Below, in pieces: positions 11,484 to 14,615 of a DNA stretch of 33,168 nt. The notes under the pieces were generated by a model. It saw only the letters and a list, made by a program, of their open reading frames with translations, was not told where the DNA came from and searched no databases. Position 1 is the first letter of the stretch. Every line of letters begins with the position of its first letter. Source of the stretch: a virus; IMG/VR virus record IMGVR_UViG_3300032285_000759, positions 1-33,168 of that record. One strand, written 5' to 3'. The position numbers and the translations under genes were made by a program.

Positions 11484-11580
11484 TGGACATTTCCTCTAGC
11501 AAAGCCCAGATGGCCATTAAAAAACAAATAACCACAAAAGTGATTAAAAACAATCCAAAAATAATTAACAAGGTATTCAT
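11473..11580 (-). CDS. tiny membrane peptide, 35 aa
   Basis: A short frame that reads MNTLLIIFGLFLITFVVICF followed by LMAIWALLEEMSNDT. Residues 3-27 form one strong transmembrane helix. Its ATG overlaps the RusA stop (ATGA at 11577-11580) and its 3' end carries the GAGGAA ribosome-binding site and start of the next gene, so it fits the operon exactly and explains the otherwise empty 93 bases. Function unknown; no homologue recognised. Confidence 0.6.
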   Translation of the reverse strand: MNTLLIIFGLFLITFVVICFLMAIWALLEEMSNDT

Positions 11581-11996
11581 TCTGTTTCCCTTATTAACAC
11601 CTCAACACAAGGTTCACCATATTTCTTGGTAACGTACAAATTGACAATCTGGGAATCGTTTTTAAAAATGACCTTATCGCACCCATCAAGCACCGCTTTA
11701 ACCACATTGTCGATGTCTGGTTTCTTAGTATGCCTCTCTAAGCCATTTAAACACGCCTCCTTGCGTTTCTTTGAGTAGGATAATGGTATGGCAAAGGATA
11801 TGTAAATAAATGCGTCCAAAGCCGTTTTAAGCGGTTCAGATAATCCCATTGATTTCTGTGCTGCTTGGCGAATAGTATCCTCATAAGCAACAGTCTTTGC
11901 ATCGGTATAAGTGCTGACAAAAGCACCGCGTCTAGCAAACCTTGGTCGGCCTTTACCGCGGGGCTGGCCATCAACTTTGAATGTCACATGAAACAT
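11577..11996 (-). CDS. rusA: RusA-family Holliday junction resolvase, 139 aa
   Basis: RusA is a small dimeric endonuclease that cuts four-way DNA junctions. Family hallmarks are visible: N-terminal GQPRGKGRPRFARRG (about 10-24), the catalytic KKPDIDNVVKAVLDG region with Asp94 and Asp96 (the D-x-D-N motif) and Asp104, then VIFKNDSQIV with Asp114, and the closing VEVLIRE strand. Length is normal for the family (E. coli RusA 120 aa). An AAGGAACTC sequence precedes the ATG, and the start lies within the end of the upstream 56-aa gene. It probably resolves recombination intermediates made by the ERF/exonuclease system encoded at 13897-15545. Confidence 0.92.
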   Translation of the reverse strand: MFHVTFKVDGQPRGKGRPRFARRGAFVSTYTDAKTVAYEDTIRQAAQKSMGLSEPLKTALDAFIYISFAIPLSYSKKRKEACLNGLERHTKKPDIDNVVKAVLDGCDKVIFKNDSQIVNLYVTKKYGEPCVEVLIRETE

Positions 11997-12141
11997 TGAG
12001 TTCCTTAATTCTTTGGGCTACTGCTTTGCCTAAACCATTAAACATTGGGTGCTTTTCCATTTCCCTGACCTGGTGTCTGACGTAATCAATCCATCCAGGC
12101 TTTAGAGCAAGTTGAGCATAGTGTTCAACAAAATCAACCAT
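11971..12141 (-). CDS. small conserved phage protein, 56 aa
   Basis: Reads MVDFVEHYAQLALKPGWID, then YVRHQVREMEKHPMFNGLGK and AVAQRIKELNVSCDIQS. The PGWxDYxRHxxxEMEKxPxFxGLGxxV pattern recurs in small proteins of phage replication regions; function unknown. It overlaps the YdaU-like stop by 8 bases and the RusA start by 26 bases, which suits the tightly packed operon. No obvious strong ribosome-binding site, so coupled translation is likely. Confidence 0.7.
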   Translation of the reverse strand: MVDFVEHYAQLALKPGWIDYVRHQVREMEKHPMFNGLGKAVAQRIKELNVSCDIQS

Positions 12142-12862
12142 TGTTCTTTATCATTTTGAACTTGGCCTTTACTTCGTCTGGCATCGCCACGGCGTTTTTA
12201 GCATCATTCTCTAGTTTCACAAGCGTTGGATCACGCCCAGGCTTGCTAGGAACTGTCTGGTGAATGATGTCCACTTTAGCGGCAATCCACTCAGCTTTGA
12301 ATGTTGTCCATCCTCTAGCACAACAAGTCTTGATTGCGTCATCTAGCGTGATGTTGGCTTTTTCGGCCTCAATTTGAATTGATGCGATCAAGGTGTCGGT
12401 TAGTGTTTTGTTTTTGGCTTTCAAGACTTTTTCAAAATCCATATATATATGGTTCTTGGTTATTGGTTCTTGGTTCATGGTTAGTTGCACATCTGTTGTA
12501 CATCTGTTCAACACCTGTTCAACACCTGTTGATCGTTTGTTCAACGCACGTTTAACGGCTGATGCTTTACCAGCTTTAGATTTGTCGTTAATTAAACTTT
12601 GATATTCAGATATTTCTATTTCACAACGCCTTTGATACCAATATTCACCTTTCAATTTGAAAAACATATTGAGTATTCCAATAACAATATCTTCATTATC
12701 CCTAGCATTTATTTTCATGCTAAGAGTATAAATATCGTTTGGTAAAGGGTTTTCTGTATCGTAATAAAGCCAAAGAAGTTTTAAATAAATTCCTACTTCT
12801 TCATTGGTAAGAAACGCGGTATCTTTAATAAAATCACCAATATGATGCTGATAATAGTGCAT
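12134..12862 (-). CDS. YdaU-like (DUF1376) replication-region protein, 242 aa
   Basis: The N-terminal 85 residues fit the DUF1376/YdaU pattern, including HHIGDFIKDTAFLTNEEVGIYLKLLWLYY and LPNDIYTLSMKINA, which resembles a winged-helix domain found in phage replication initiation-type proteins. A Lys/Asn-rich linker (about 105-140) precedes a C-terminal helical part (about 140-242) with a ACCARGWTTFKAEW segment as in replication/primosome proteins of such phages. The start is the first ATG after a nine-T run and a GGGG that may act as a ribosome-binding site. It is the first gene of the leftward operon. Because no helicase or polymerase is seen in the genome, this protein is the best candidate for recruiting the host replication machinery. 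Confidence 0.75.
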   Translation of the reverse strand: MHYYQHHIGDFIKDTAFLTNEEVGIYLKLLWLYYDTENPLPNDIYTLSMKINARDNEDIVIGILNMFFKLKGEYWYQRRCEIEISEYQSLINDKSKAGKASAVKRALNKRSTGVEQVLNRCTTDVQLTMNQEPITKNHIYMDFEKVLKAKNKTLTDTLIASIQIEAEKANITLDDAIKTCCARGWTTFKAEWIAAKVDIIHQTVPSKPGRDPTLVKLENDAKNAVAMPDEVKAKFKMIKNNG

Positions 12863-12871
12863 AAAAACCCC

Positions 12872-12952
12872 AAAAAAAAAGGGCTACACCTGCTATCTCG
12901 CCTTTCGGCGTTGGCGGACTGGCGCAGTACCAGCAGATAGCATGTGTAACCC
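12872..12952 (-). ncRNA. structured RNA (three-way junction) with terminator-like T run, upstream of the replication operon
   Basis: An 18-bp stem is formed by 12881-12898 with 12935-12952. Read on the minus strand it has one G-A mismatch and one G-T pair, where plus-strand RNA would have two mismatches, so minus-strand RNA folds better. Inside are two more hairpins: CTGG/CCAG with a 7-base loop (12919-12933), and CGCC-GAAA-GGCG with a GNRA tetraloop on the minus strand (12899-12910). The stem is followed directly by nine T residues (12880-12872), giving intrinsic-terminator form, 10 bases before the YdaU-like ATG. It could be a small RNA with its own terminator, or an attenuator in the leader. 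The shape alone does not identify a family; a C4-type phage antisense RNA is one candidate to test. Confidence 0.65.
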
Positions 12953-12985
12953 TACTACGAATAACGCCGCCAAGCGTCCAAATAA

Positions 12986-13012
12986 AGTATAACTCAAATT
13001 TACAAAAACCAA
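12986..13012 (-). promoter_or_regulatory. weak promoter candidate for the structured RNA
   Basis: On the minus strand TATACT (12991-12986) is a good -10, but the nearest -35 candidate TTGGTT (13012-13007) is poor and only 15 bases away. Initiation would be near 12978, giving an RNA of about 105 bases ending at the T run. It overlaps the end of the Cro-like gene. Confidence 0.25.
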
Positions 13013-13152
13013 TCTGGCTTTAATAGCTTTAATTGCCAAATCCTTGCTTGGGGAATTACTTTCCAATTGGTAACGGCCTGTCTCTGAATGCCCAATAGGC
13101 GCGCCAAAGATGCTTTATTACCAGCGAGTTCAATTGCTTTTTCTTTTGTCAT
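13000..13152 (-). CDS. Cro/YdaS-like helix-turn-helix regulator, 50 aa
   Basis: Reads MTKEKAIELAGNKASLARLL, then GIQRQAVTNWKVIPQARIWQ and LKLLKPDWFL. This is the short Cro/YdaS form: helix-turn-helix at about residues 13-33 (KASLARLLGIQRQAVTNWK) and the IPxARxWQLxxLKPxWF ending. It should bind operator DNA as a dimer. It is transcribed away from the rightward operon, in the place of a lambdoid control gene, with operator-like repeats just upstream. There is no Shine-Dalgarno before the ATG, and a -10-like TACAAT lies so close (13164-13159) that the transcript may begin at the ATG itself. This gene is too short to appear in many automatic annotations. Confidence 0.85.
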   Translation of the reverse strand: MTKEKAIELAGNKASLARLLGIQRQAVTNWKVIPQARIWQLKLLKPDWFL

Positions 13153-13158
13153 GTTGTA

Positions 13159-13187
13159 ATTGTACATCAGTATTTACTTATTTACCA
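13159..13187 (-). promoter_or_regulatory. candidate leftward promoter for the Cro-like gene, possibly leaderless
   Basis: On the minus strand TACAAT (13164-13159, 5 of 6 consensus) lies 17 bases from TGGTAA (13187-13182, weak -35). Transcription would start at about 13152-13153, at or just before the A of the ATG. Leaderless translation is known for lambda cI from PRM. The -10 overlaps the first operator-like repeat, as expected for autoregulation. Confidence 0.4.
13161..13177 (+). repeat. operator-like repeat, copy 1
   Basis: TGTACATCAGTATTTAC. The inverted copy at 13225-13241 matches at 15 of 17 positions, with the match running on a few bases. It lies over the leftward promoter candidate, 9 bases upstream of the Cro-like ATG. 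It is probably a binding site of the Cro-like protein; this is inference. Confidence 0.6.
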
Positions 13188-13209
13188 CATTAGGGAATGT
13201 ACCTATAAA
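13181..13209 (+). promoter_or_regulatory. rightward early promoter candidate
   Basis: TTTACC (13181-13186) and TATAAA (13204-13209) are separated by 17 bases, a good sigma70-type arrangement (4 of 6 and 5 of 6 matches). Transcription would start near 13216 and read the second operator-like copy in the leader, then the early genes from 13294. Confidence 0.5.
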
Positions 13210-13224
13210 AAAGACTTGCTGAAA

Positions 13225-13241
13225 GTAAATCTTGATGTACA
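13225..13241 (-). repeat. operator-like repeat, copy 2 (inverted)
   Basis: GTAAATCTTGATGTACA on the plus strand; its complement is TGTACATCAAGATTTAC, which matches copy 1 except for the two central bases. It lies just downstream of the predicted rightward start point, where a bound repressor could block elongation. Confidence 0.6.
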
Positions 13242-13293
13242 CTACATTCATGCCCTAGCAAATCGCATAAGGGTCTTTTTAGAAAGCAGCAAA

Positions 13294-13452
13294 ATGAAAA
13301 TTGAATTATTAGAAACATTCCAAACGCAATTGCGTGGTACTAATGACCAAGAGTACCAAATATATTTAGCTTGTGCTGATGACGGCAAAGGCGGTGATAT
13401 TACAAATAATGGTCAACCACTCAAAACATATGAAGAGTGGCTAAATGCTTAA
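13294..13452 (+). CDS. small early protein, 52 aa
   Basis: Unknown function. The ATG at 13294 is chosen over the upstream TTG at 13216, which lies at the predicted transcription start. An AGAAAG stretch precedes the ATG at modest distance. The protein (MKIELLETFQTQLRG... TYEEWLNA) is acidic with a Gly-rich middle segment. First gene of the rightward early operon; its end overlaps the next ATG by 8 bases. Confidence 0.6.
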   Translation: MKIELLETFQTQLRGTNDQEYQIYLACADDGKGGDITNNGQPLKTYEEWLNA

Positions 13453-13648
13453 AGAACAAGCCAACCTAATCCTAGATCAGGTGCGGGTTGGCGTTCTTTA
13501 CCCAAAACACATCATTAATCAAGCATTGACAATTACTGGAGATTTAAATGGAAAAATATCACAGAACAACGAACGAAGCATTCCACAATACTATGGAGTA
13601 TGGGGCTTGCATCGAGAAGCCAACCCCCAAGATGTTTACAAAGGTTGA
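13445..13648 (+). CDS. small early protein, up to 67 aa, overlapping the next gene
   Basis: Starts MLKEQANLILDQVRVGVLYP and continues with a helical IINQALTITGDL segment that looks like real protein. After about residue 35 the frame runs into the next gene, and the last 34 residues are of doubtful meaning because the other frame there encodes a better protein with its own ribosome-binding site. The whole frame may be translated, giving about 100 bases of dual coding, or the natural stop has been lost. Function unknown. Confidence 0.45.
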   Translation: MLKEQANLILDQVRVGVLYPKHIINQALTITGDLNGKISQNNERSIPQYYGVWGLHREANPQDVYKG

Positions 13649-13712
13649 AATATGCGTGTACTTAATCGCAGCGATCGTGATTTTATTAGATATGTTTATC
13701 TGGAGACCCTGA
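13548..13712 (+). CDS. small membrane protein, 54 aa
   Basis: Reads MEKYHRTTNEAFHNTMEYGA, then CIEKPTPKMFTKVEICVYLI and AAIVILLDMFIWRP. The C-terminal part (about residues 33-51) is one transmembrane helix; the YHRTxxEAF opening recurs in small phage membrane proteins. TGGAG lies about 8 bases before the ATG. The stop TGA overlaps the next ATG (TGATG at 13710-13714). Function unknown. Confidence 0.65.
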   Translation: MEKYHRTTNEAFHNTMEYGACIEKPTPKMFTKVEICVYLIAAIVILLDMFIWRP

Positions 13713-13900
13713 TGGATGCATCCAAAATCATTAGACAGTCTGAAGAAGCCACACAAGCCTACATCAACAACCCAGTCAACAAGTTGAACTTTCAGTTGGG
13801 TTACTTAAAAAGCCAGATTGAGGATTTGTGCGAAATGGTCCAGATTCAGCGTGAAGAAATCCAGAAGTTAGAAATTGAATTATCAGGAGAAAAAGAATGA
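13712..13900 (+). CDS. small coiled-coil protein, 62 aa
   Basis: MDASKIIRQSEEATQAYINN followed by a heptad-like helix (about residues 28-62, KSQIEDLCEMVQIQREEIQK). The ATG at 13712 is preferred over one at 13652 because GGAG lies 6 bases upstream and TGATG couples it to the previous stop. The stop overlaps the ERF start (ATGA). Function unknown. Confidence 0.65.
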   Translation: MDASKIIRQSEEATQAYINNPVNKLNFQLGYLKSQIEDLCEMVQIQREEIQKLEIELSGEKE

Positions 13901-14466
13901 AACAAATCGCAACTGCTCTAGTCAAAGCCCAAAAGGCGTTTAATCCCGCTTTAAAGCAGTCTATTAACCCGCATTTCAAAAGCCGGTATGTTGACCTTGC
14001 TGGGTGCGTTGAGGCCGTTATAGACGCTTTAAACAACAATGGCATTTACTTGCTGCAAAAGACATTTGAGTGCGCTGACGGCGTGATTGTTGAGACTATT
14101 TTTGTCCACGAATCAGGCGAGATGCTGGAGTGCGGAATGCTGCACTTTCCCGCGGTCAAAGCCGATCCACAGGGTTATGCGTCAGCTCTCACATACGCCA
14201 GGCGCTACAGTCTGATGGCGGCGTGCGGTATTGCGCCAGAAGACGATGACGGCAATCAGGCTAGTCGCAAGGTTGAGACAAAGATCGTAAGCCACGTCAA
14301 CGTTAAAGAGTTGGACAAACTGATTGAAAAGATGCGCCAGGCTGAAAACCAAGAGCAACTGGTGGCCAGCTACAGAATTGCATTCCAAGCGTGCCAGAGC
14401 GAGAAATCACACCAAGACCGCGTGATTGCCATTAAAAACGAAATGAAAGAGAAAGTACCGGCATGA
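13897..14466 (+). CDS. erf: ERF-family single-strand annealing protein, 189 aa
   Basis: ERF proteins form rings on single-stranded DNA and pair homologous strands. The N-terminal 120 residues show the family pattern: ALVKAQKAFNPALKQSINPHFKSRYVDLAG in the first 40 residues, then GEMLECGMLHFPAVKADPQG and YASALTYARRYSLMAACGI (the family's AxTYARRYxLxxxxGI signature), followed by an acidic EDDDGNQA. The C-terminal 60 residues are a variable helical part. AGGAGA precedes the ATG. Acts with the exonuclease at 14937 in a RecA-independent recombination route similar to P22 Erf or lambda Red. Confidence 0.92.
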   Translation: MKQIATALVKAQKAFNPALKQSINPHFKSRYVDLAGCVEAVIDALNNNGIYLLQKTFECADGVIVETIFVHESGEMLECGMLHFPAVKADPQGYASALTYARRYSLMAACGIAPEDDDGNQASRKVETKIVSHVNVKELDKLIEKMRQAENQEQLVASYRIAFQACQSEKSHQDRVIAIKNEMKEKVPA

Positions 14467-14615
14467 ACTTAATCAGCGATTTTGAATCAGAACGTGATTA
14501 CTGGCACGCACAAGACGCAATTGAAGACTTGTACGAGTACGAATTATCCAAACATCCACATTGCAAAGACCCAGATCACCCTGGTTGCACAAAATGCGAG
14601 GATTTTGATGATTGA
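14463..14615 (+). CDS. small acidic zinc-finger-like protein, 50 aa
   Basis: Reads MNLISDFESERDYWHAQDAI, then EDLYEYELSKHPHCKDPDHP and GCTKCEDFDD. The His-Cys and Cys-x2-Cys (HPHCKDPDHPGCTKC) could bind zinc. The ATG overlaps the ERF stop (ATGA at 14463-14466) and the stop overlaps the next gene by 8 bases. It is well placed and has low isoelectric character; function unknown. Confidence 0.65.
   Translation: MNLISDFESERDYWHAQDAIEDLYEYELSKHPHCKDPDHPGCTKCEDFDD

Follow-up and report, generated by a model that had tools for sequence, protein, structure and literature searches.

A compact C4-like RNA ahead of phage replication genes, a candidate self-limiting attenuator

The 33,168-nucleotide stretch of viral DNA analysed here (the window; IMG/VR record IMGVR_UViG_3300032285_000759) carries a structured minus-strand RNA of about 108 nt, with predicted ends at 12979 and 12872. 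A Cro-like gene lies on one side of it and the replication genes on the other. We read this RNA, with a probability of roughly 60%, as an antisense RNA of the C4/P4-CI type that combines target and antisense in one molecule and would attenuate the replication operon in a self-limiting way. Sequence comparison establishes its architecture, the complementarity of two target-antisense pairs (a:a' and b:b') that is kept by coevolution, and its place at the head of an early or replication operon. Termination control and action in trans are what we infer.

Architecture of the RNA in the window

The gene directly upstream of the RNA encodes a P22 Cro-like repressor (13000–13167, minus strand; PF14549, E 5.5e-9). 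Directly downstream is a DUF1376/YdaU-like primosomal (replication) gene (12134–12862, minus strand; Pfam PF07120, E 7e-24; PHROG primosomal protein). Though the Cro-like gene is present, no integrase (PF00589) was matched in the window record (1–33168). The stretch before the replication genes packs promoter, target, antisense and terminator into about 130 bp. From its sequence, the RNA is predicted to have its own sigma-70 type promoter at the 5' end, with a -10 element TATACT (12986–12991, minus strand) and a weak -35 element TTGGTT (13007–13012, minus strand) within the end of the Cro-like gene.

All parts of the RNA are on the minus strand. It begins with a 5' hairpin (12978–12963) whose stem GACG/CGTT encloses the loop CUUGGCGG; inside this loop lies target a, TTGGCGG (12973–12967). 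The linker that follows is target b, CGTAGTA (12959–12953). Folding and covariation define the outer stem P1, with the 5' arm GGGTTACACATGCTATCT (12952–12935) and the 3' arm AGATAGCAGGTGTAGCCC (12898–12881), and the enclosed P2 hairpin, CTGG-TACTGCG-CCAG (12933–12919). The P2 loop TACTGCG (12929–12923) is antisense b', complementary to b, and antisense a', CCGCCAA (12917–12911), complementary to a, is single-stranded between P2 and the hairpin P3, CGCC-GAAA-GGCG (12910–12899). P1 comprises 18 positions, one of them an A-G mismatch and another a G-U pair. Together with the nine U that follow (12880–12872), where the RNA is predicted to end, it has the form of an intrinsic terminator, a stable stem and then a U run.

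The outer stem, the two enclosed hairpins with a GAAA loop in one of them, and the run of nine T had been described on this strand in a first-pass annotation, and all are present. It had also placed the T run 10 bases before the YdaU-like start; the spacing to the ATG at 12862 is 9 nt. Essential parts that lie within its interval were left undescribed, namely the first 27 bases of the RNA (12979–12953), which make up the hairpin and the linker.

A GGGG at 12871–12868 (minus strand) is the probable Shine-Dalgarno sequence of the DUF1376 gene. Alternatively it may pair with GCCC in the 3' arm of P1, a pairing that has weak statistical support. In the window (12868–12885) the P1 3' arm and U run complement the Shine-Dalgarno region; the complementary segments are AGCCC/GGGCU in group 1 and GCUUUUU/AAAAAGC in many other members.

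An RNA family with coevolving target and antisense

Fifty diverse members were used to build a covariance model, which finds at least 162 members with scores of 47–111 bits, one copy per genome, and gives the window locus 98 bits (E ~1e-23). The fold of the window locus by itself is moderately unusual (z -2.8), so that homology is decisive in confirming the locus as real. In a distant blastn comparison, 12873–12978 was the sole part of 11500–14500 that matched the Manatee Spring phages MW202462 and MW202544 (87.7%), in which the RNA is again directly ahead of the start of a gene of the DUF1376 cluster. In MW202462 (L002:5960-6202) an annotated 'hypothetical protein', probably spurious, overlaps the RNA on the opposite strand. 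The window shares a 22-base core with Burkholderia phage BcepMigl. A pattern scan of IMG/VR gave 58 exact core matches, and two later scans gave further matches, the number of which is a lower bound.

Among Burkholderia phage isolates, the covariance model finds the RNA in BcepMigl, BcepIL02, DC1 and CSP3. In these Lessievirus isolates it is unannotated and lies upstream of the replication genes; b is identical in CSP3 and DC1, and differs in BcepIL02 and BcepMigl. A prophage-like region of Polynucleobacter sp. UK-Kesae-W10 also has the RNA, and there a CI-like gene diverges from the operon. Seven matches were obtained in a pattern scan of bacterial genomes, of which only this region and a betaproteobacterial MAG contig were real. 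The model search of bacterial genomes gave 3 of 398 in the same family (centre included) and otherwise none in the 397 of a phylum sample. This rarity in bacterial genomes marks the RNA as a phage element rather than a host element. A plasmid collection gave no match, and only 4 of 28 large RNA-bearing records encode a tyrosine integrase.

A search with Rfam models, C4 among them, had been suggested in the first-pass annotation as a check; no Rfam 15 family matches the window or its relatives at gathering or permissive thresholds. Rfam 15 does not include this large RNA family, none of the curated families accounts for it, and no earlier description of the RNA was found in open-access papers.

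Covariation was scored over six helices, two of which (a:a' and b:b') are crossing. Across the alignment of 50 members, for which selection had enforced a/a' complementarity, 96.0% of cells are paired, as compared with 73.7% after shuffling and 35–41% for slid structures. Double compensatory changes, which had been named beforehand as the signal to look for, occur in 36 of the 44 pairs (25.9 expected; a:a' and b:b' included) and in 464 cells (107 expected). All 18 P1 pairs covary, as do 4/4 pairs of the 5' hairpin stem (97.8% paired) and 3/4 of P3. The b:b' helix, enforced by no selection step, has double compensatory changes at 7/7 pairs. With a pattern that placed no constraint on a, every family member with a variant a' has the matching a, and a/a' complementarity is perfect in 162/162 members, including those found by the model alone. 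Three compensated a/a' alleles were seen, among them GGCAG/CTGCC and GACGG/CCGTC. By covariation alone, pairing within a molecule and pairing between identical molecules look alike.

Among 147 unique relatives, G-U pairs outnumber A-C pairs by 106 to 0 in the 5' hairpin, P2 and P3 taken together, and 86 of the 147 have a GNRA tetraloop on P3. This asymmetry, together with the loops, identifies the minus-strand RNA as the functional molecule, as had been surmised from a G-T pair in the window. A plain terminator, which the first-pass annotation had already considered too little, is ruled out by the coevolution of a:a' and b:b'. The stem is kept by relatives beside the replication gene; lack of covariation, a freely varying stem and loss of the stem beside the same genes, all named earlier as findings that would speak against the RNA, were not observed. 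A small protein encoded in the element was also considered and rejected, as single-base length differences occur between members and no reading frame stays open in the majority of them.

In most members the P1 stem (12898–12935 in the window) retains a single internal mismatch, with the ninth pair unpaired in 35/50 members and the tenth in 7/50. Evasion of RNase III and a toehold for branch migration are possible roles of a mismatch at either pair.

Signals around the RNA are also conserved. A -10 element that matches TATAAT at 5–6 of 6 positions precedes the 5' hairpin in 107 of 139 members, compared with 6 of 138 in a control window. This -10 element is directly before the 5' hairpin, and the RNA is therefore predicted to begin with the target hairpin. 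A U run followed by a start codon after 8–14 nt was found in 119 of 140 members, which had been selected for TTTT and have U runs of 4–9 nt. Four members found by the model have no clear U run and keep P1 and all helices, so that termination may not be universal. These four (L274:1501-1606, L275:1606-1501, L120:2031-2136 and L160:333-216) are still close before the start codon. The downstream gene belongs to the DUF1376 replication family in the largest cluster (70 loci); others include HNH, GIY-YIG and ParB-like genes, the names being assigned by eye except for the window's gene. A small DNA-binding, Cro-like gene is just upstream in 51 loci.

The b' loop is highly diverse, with 60 different sequences among the 162 members, and each of them fits its own b better than it fits the b of others. 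For these 60 loops, b:b' pairing within a member is at -7.0 kcal/mol, versus -2.5 kcal/mol for cross pairing. Among pairs of members with identical P1 arms, 164 have different b' loops and 43 have the same. In 139 of these 164 pairs the member's own b' fits better, with a mean b:b' energy of -7.3 kcal/mol compared with -3.9 kcal/mol for the other's. Such diversification of b/b' on an identical P1 resembles the evolution of antisense specificity, for example that of immunity types, and the sequences thereby suggest action in trans. The pattern favours a leader whose own terminated product is an antisense that promotes termination.

Folding, proposed mechanism and alternative readings

Predicted folds of family members change with RNA length. 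In RNAs truncated at a', the median probability of a:a' is 0.89, and in full-length RNAs the probability of P1 is about 0.93. In these models this is attenuator behaviour, in which antiterminator and terminator are mutually exclusive. The window RNA truncated at a' prefers a related, non-identical 5' pairing, with an a:a' probability of 0.01; a:a' does appear when the growing RNA has reached 74 nt. Between 60 and 90 nt, pairings of the 5' region that exclude P1 dominate; by 96 nt P1 has taken over. Target b abuts the P1 5' arm and b' lies at the opposite end of the 18-bp stem, hence intramolecular b:b' pairing and P1 exclude each other. The first-pass annotation had proposed a trans-acting small RNA or an attenuator, and the covariation, the folds of truncated and full-length RNAs and the matched b/b' alleles agree with it, trans action being the part that we infer.

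Under the favoured reading, the promoter at the end of the cro-like gene would start an RNA of about 108 nt with the target a-b at its 5' end. The body of this RNA would carry the antisense, with a' single-stranded and b' displayed in a hairpin loop, and P1 with the U run would act as an intrinsic terminator immediately ahead of the replication operon's start codon. In most members a of the growing RNA would pair first with a' (antiterminator), and the complete RNA would prefer P1 (terminator). As long as the RNA is scarce, the antiterminator would form and the replication genes would be read. As terminated RNA accumulates, its a'-b' would bind a-b of new transcripts, P1 would form and transcription would stop. 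Expression of the replication genes would thus be limited, and an incoming phage of the same a-b type could be shut off.

Several features would suit a leader that acts only in cis, in which a-b:a'-b' is an antiterminator that responds to transcription speed or to some unknown factor, and the RNA, once released, does nothing in trans. Target and antisense are within one RNA, the truncated and full-length folds behave like those of an attenuator, and a search for a second target (a2-b2) found no conserved site in 1.4 Mb around members, only scattered chance matches of 5–6 nt. We nevertheless regard this explanation as rather unlikely, since the many matched b/b' alleles on identical P1 are expected of antisense specificity and not of an internal helix, and since the core is that of C4 RNAs, which act in trans. 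The missing second site weighs the other way for a small RNA whose main target is elsewhere, in the host or a competing phage, and whose 5' a-b only limits or matures the RNA itself. Such an RNA would account for the predicted promoter and terminator of its own and for the C4-type display of a' and b', but its fixed place before the replication genes speaks for a target close by, and we consider this reading improbable.

Control of translation would be a stronger competitor than a distant target, and one that still ranks below regulation in cis; it seems to us distinctly unlikely. Here P1 and its 3' arm would govern access to the Shine-Dalgarno sequence, as C4 does with icd/ant, and termination would be secondary. 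The start codon is within 8–14 nt of the U run, some members have no U run, and the P1 3' arm with the U run complements the Shine-Dalgarno region better than shuffled sequences do (-6.6 vs -5.1 kcal/mol, 0/200), a test in which shared ancestry was uncontrolled. With the same limit, the complementarity is found outside group 1 (-5.9 vs -5.1 kcal/mol, 0/300) and is weak within group 1 (5/300). Long U runs in nearly all members, for which selection required TTTT, argue against control by translation as the main function; an additional translational layer through Shine-Dalgarno pairing is possible. The element also adjoins a replication gene and is shaped like a perfect terminator, as would fit a replication origin hairpin, a protein site or an ordinary terminator. 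We give next to no weight to such a structure, given the G-U excess outside P1, the GNRA loops, a promoter in register and the coevolution of a:a' and b:b'.

If the self-limiting attenuator does act in trans, it may also confer superinfection immunity that needs no repressor. The terminated leader would be the trans-acting factor that shuts the replication operon of an entering phage whose a-b type matches; the 60 b' alleles would then represent immunity groups, mostly of small phages with no recognisable integrase. We offer this as a tentative proposal that is doubtful at present. Were trans action true, a 7-nt loop in its genome would reveal the immunity type of a phage, and superinfection groups of uncultured phages would become predictable and testable.

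Relation to C4, P4 CI, IsrK and plasmid attenuators

Features of C4, of P4 CI and of plasmid-type attenuation are brought together very compactly in this family. As in the C4 RNAs (RF01695, RF03163; P1, P7), target a is in a hairpin loop (N-UUGNCNG) and is followed by b; the loop is UUUUGACAG in P1 C4, where a1 is TTGACAG. Within its outer stem P1 C4 has GCUGG-(b' loop)-CCAGU-CUGUCAA, and the body of the window RNA has GCUGG-(b' loop)-CCAGU-CCGCCAA, with a' of the form C-N-G-N-CAA in both. A long outer stem and a-b/a'-b' specificity are likewise shared, a' and b' of C4 being complementary to the upstream a1-b1. The first-pass statement that the layout resembles C4 only in general shape is too weak for this core, although the Rfam C4 models have no match. 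The C4 (RF01695) and c4-a1b1 (RF03163) models stay below the gathering threshold for the window and its relatives, RF01695 has no match to them even at E 10, and the family's own covariance model has no match to P1 C4. Kinship with C4 therefore rests on the shared core and not on a score.

The order of parts also differs. In C4 a tetraloop hairpin is followed by the b' hairpin and a', whereas in the window RNA the b' hairpin and a' come first, and the accessory tetraloop hairpin has shifted from the 5' side of b' to the 3' side of a'. Unlike in C4, the outer stem ends in a U run and forms an intrinsic terminator, a-b is right at the RNA 5' end, no a2-b2 was found at the ribosome binding site, and replication genes take the place of icd/ant. 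The reading that we favour is that the window RNA works like C4/CI by design, yet is not to be filed as a member of RF01695.

In the plasmid attenuators of pT181 and pIP501, the leader upstream of a replication initiator forms either an antiterminator or a terminator, the two being mutually exclusive. The window RNA, by folding only, shares this arrangement and likewise has a replication gene downstream. Their antisense comes from the opposite strand, whereas a'-b' of the window RNA is on the same strand and would be the terminated product. IsrK (RF01394) is also a phage leader RNA that ends in an intrinsic terminator and is related to seqA/a1-b1. It has no a'-b' antisense body, unlike the window RNA, and its model has no match to the window.

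The CI RNA of phage P4 is reported to pair with seqA and seqC and thereby to terminate transcription prematurely, so that the P4 replication genes are not expressed (PMC4825925). The window RNA resembles it in having antisense and target in one leader ahead of replication genes, with premature termination proposed. In P4 seqA, CI and seqC are separate and CI is processed from the primary transcript, whereas the window RNA unites target, antisense and intrinsic terminator within about 108 nt. In the immunity region of phage P4 (L276:2206-1921), the Rfam C4 model matches CI and the isrK model its upstream leader, both above threshold, with c4-a1b1 just below threshold in the leader; the C4 match places P4 CI and P1 C4 in one RNA family.
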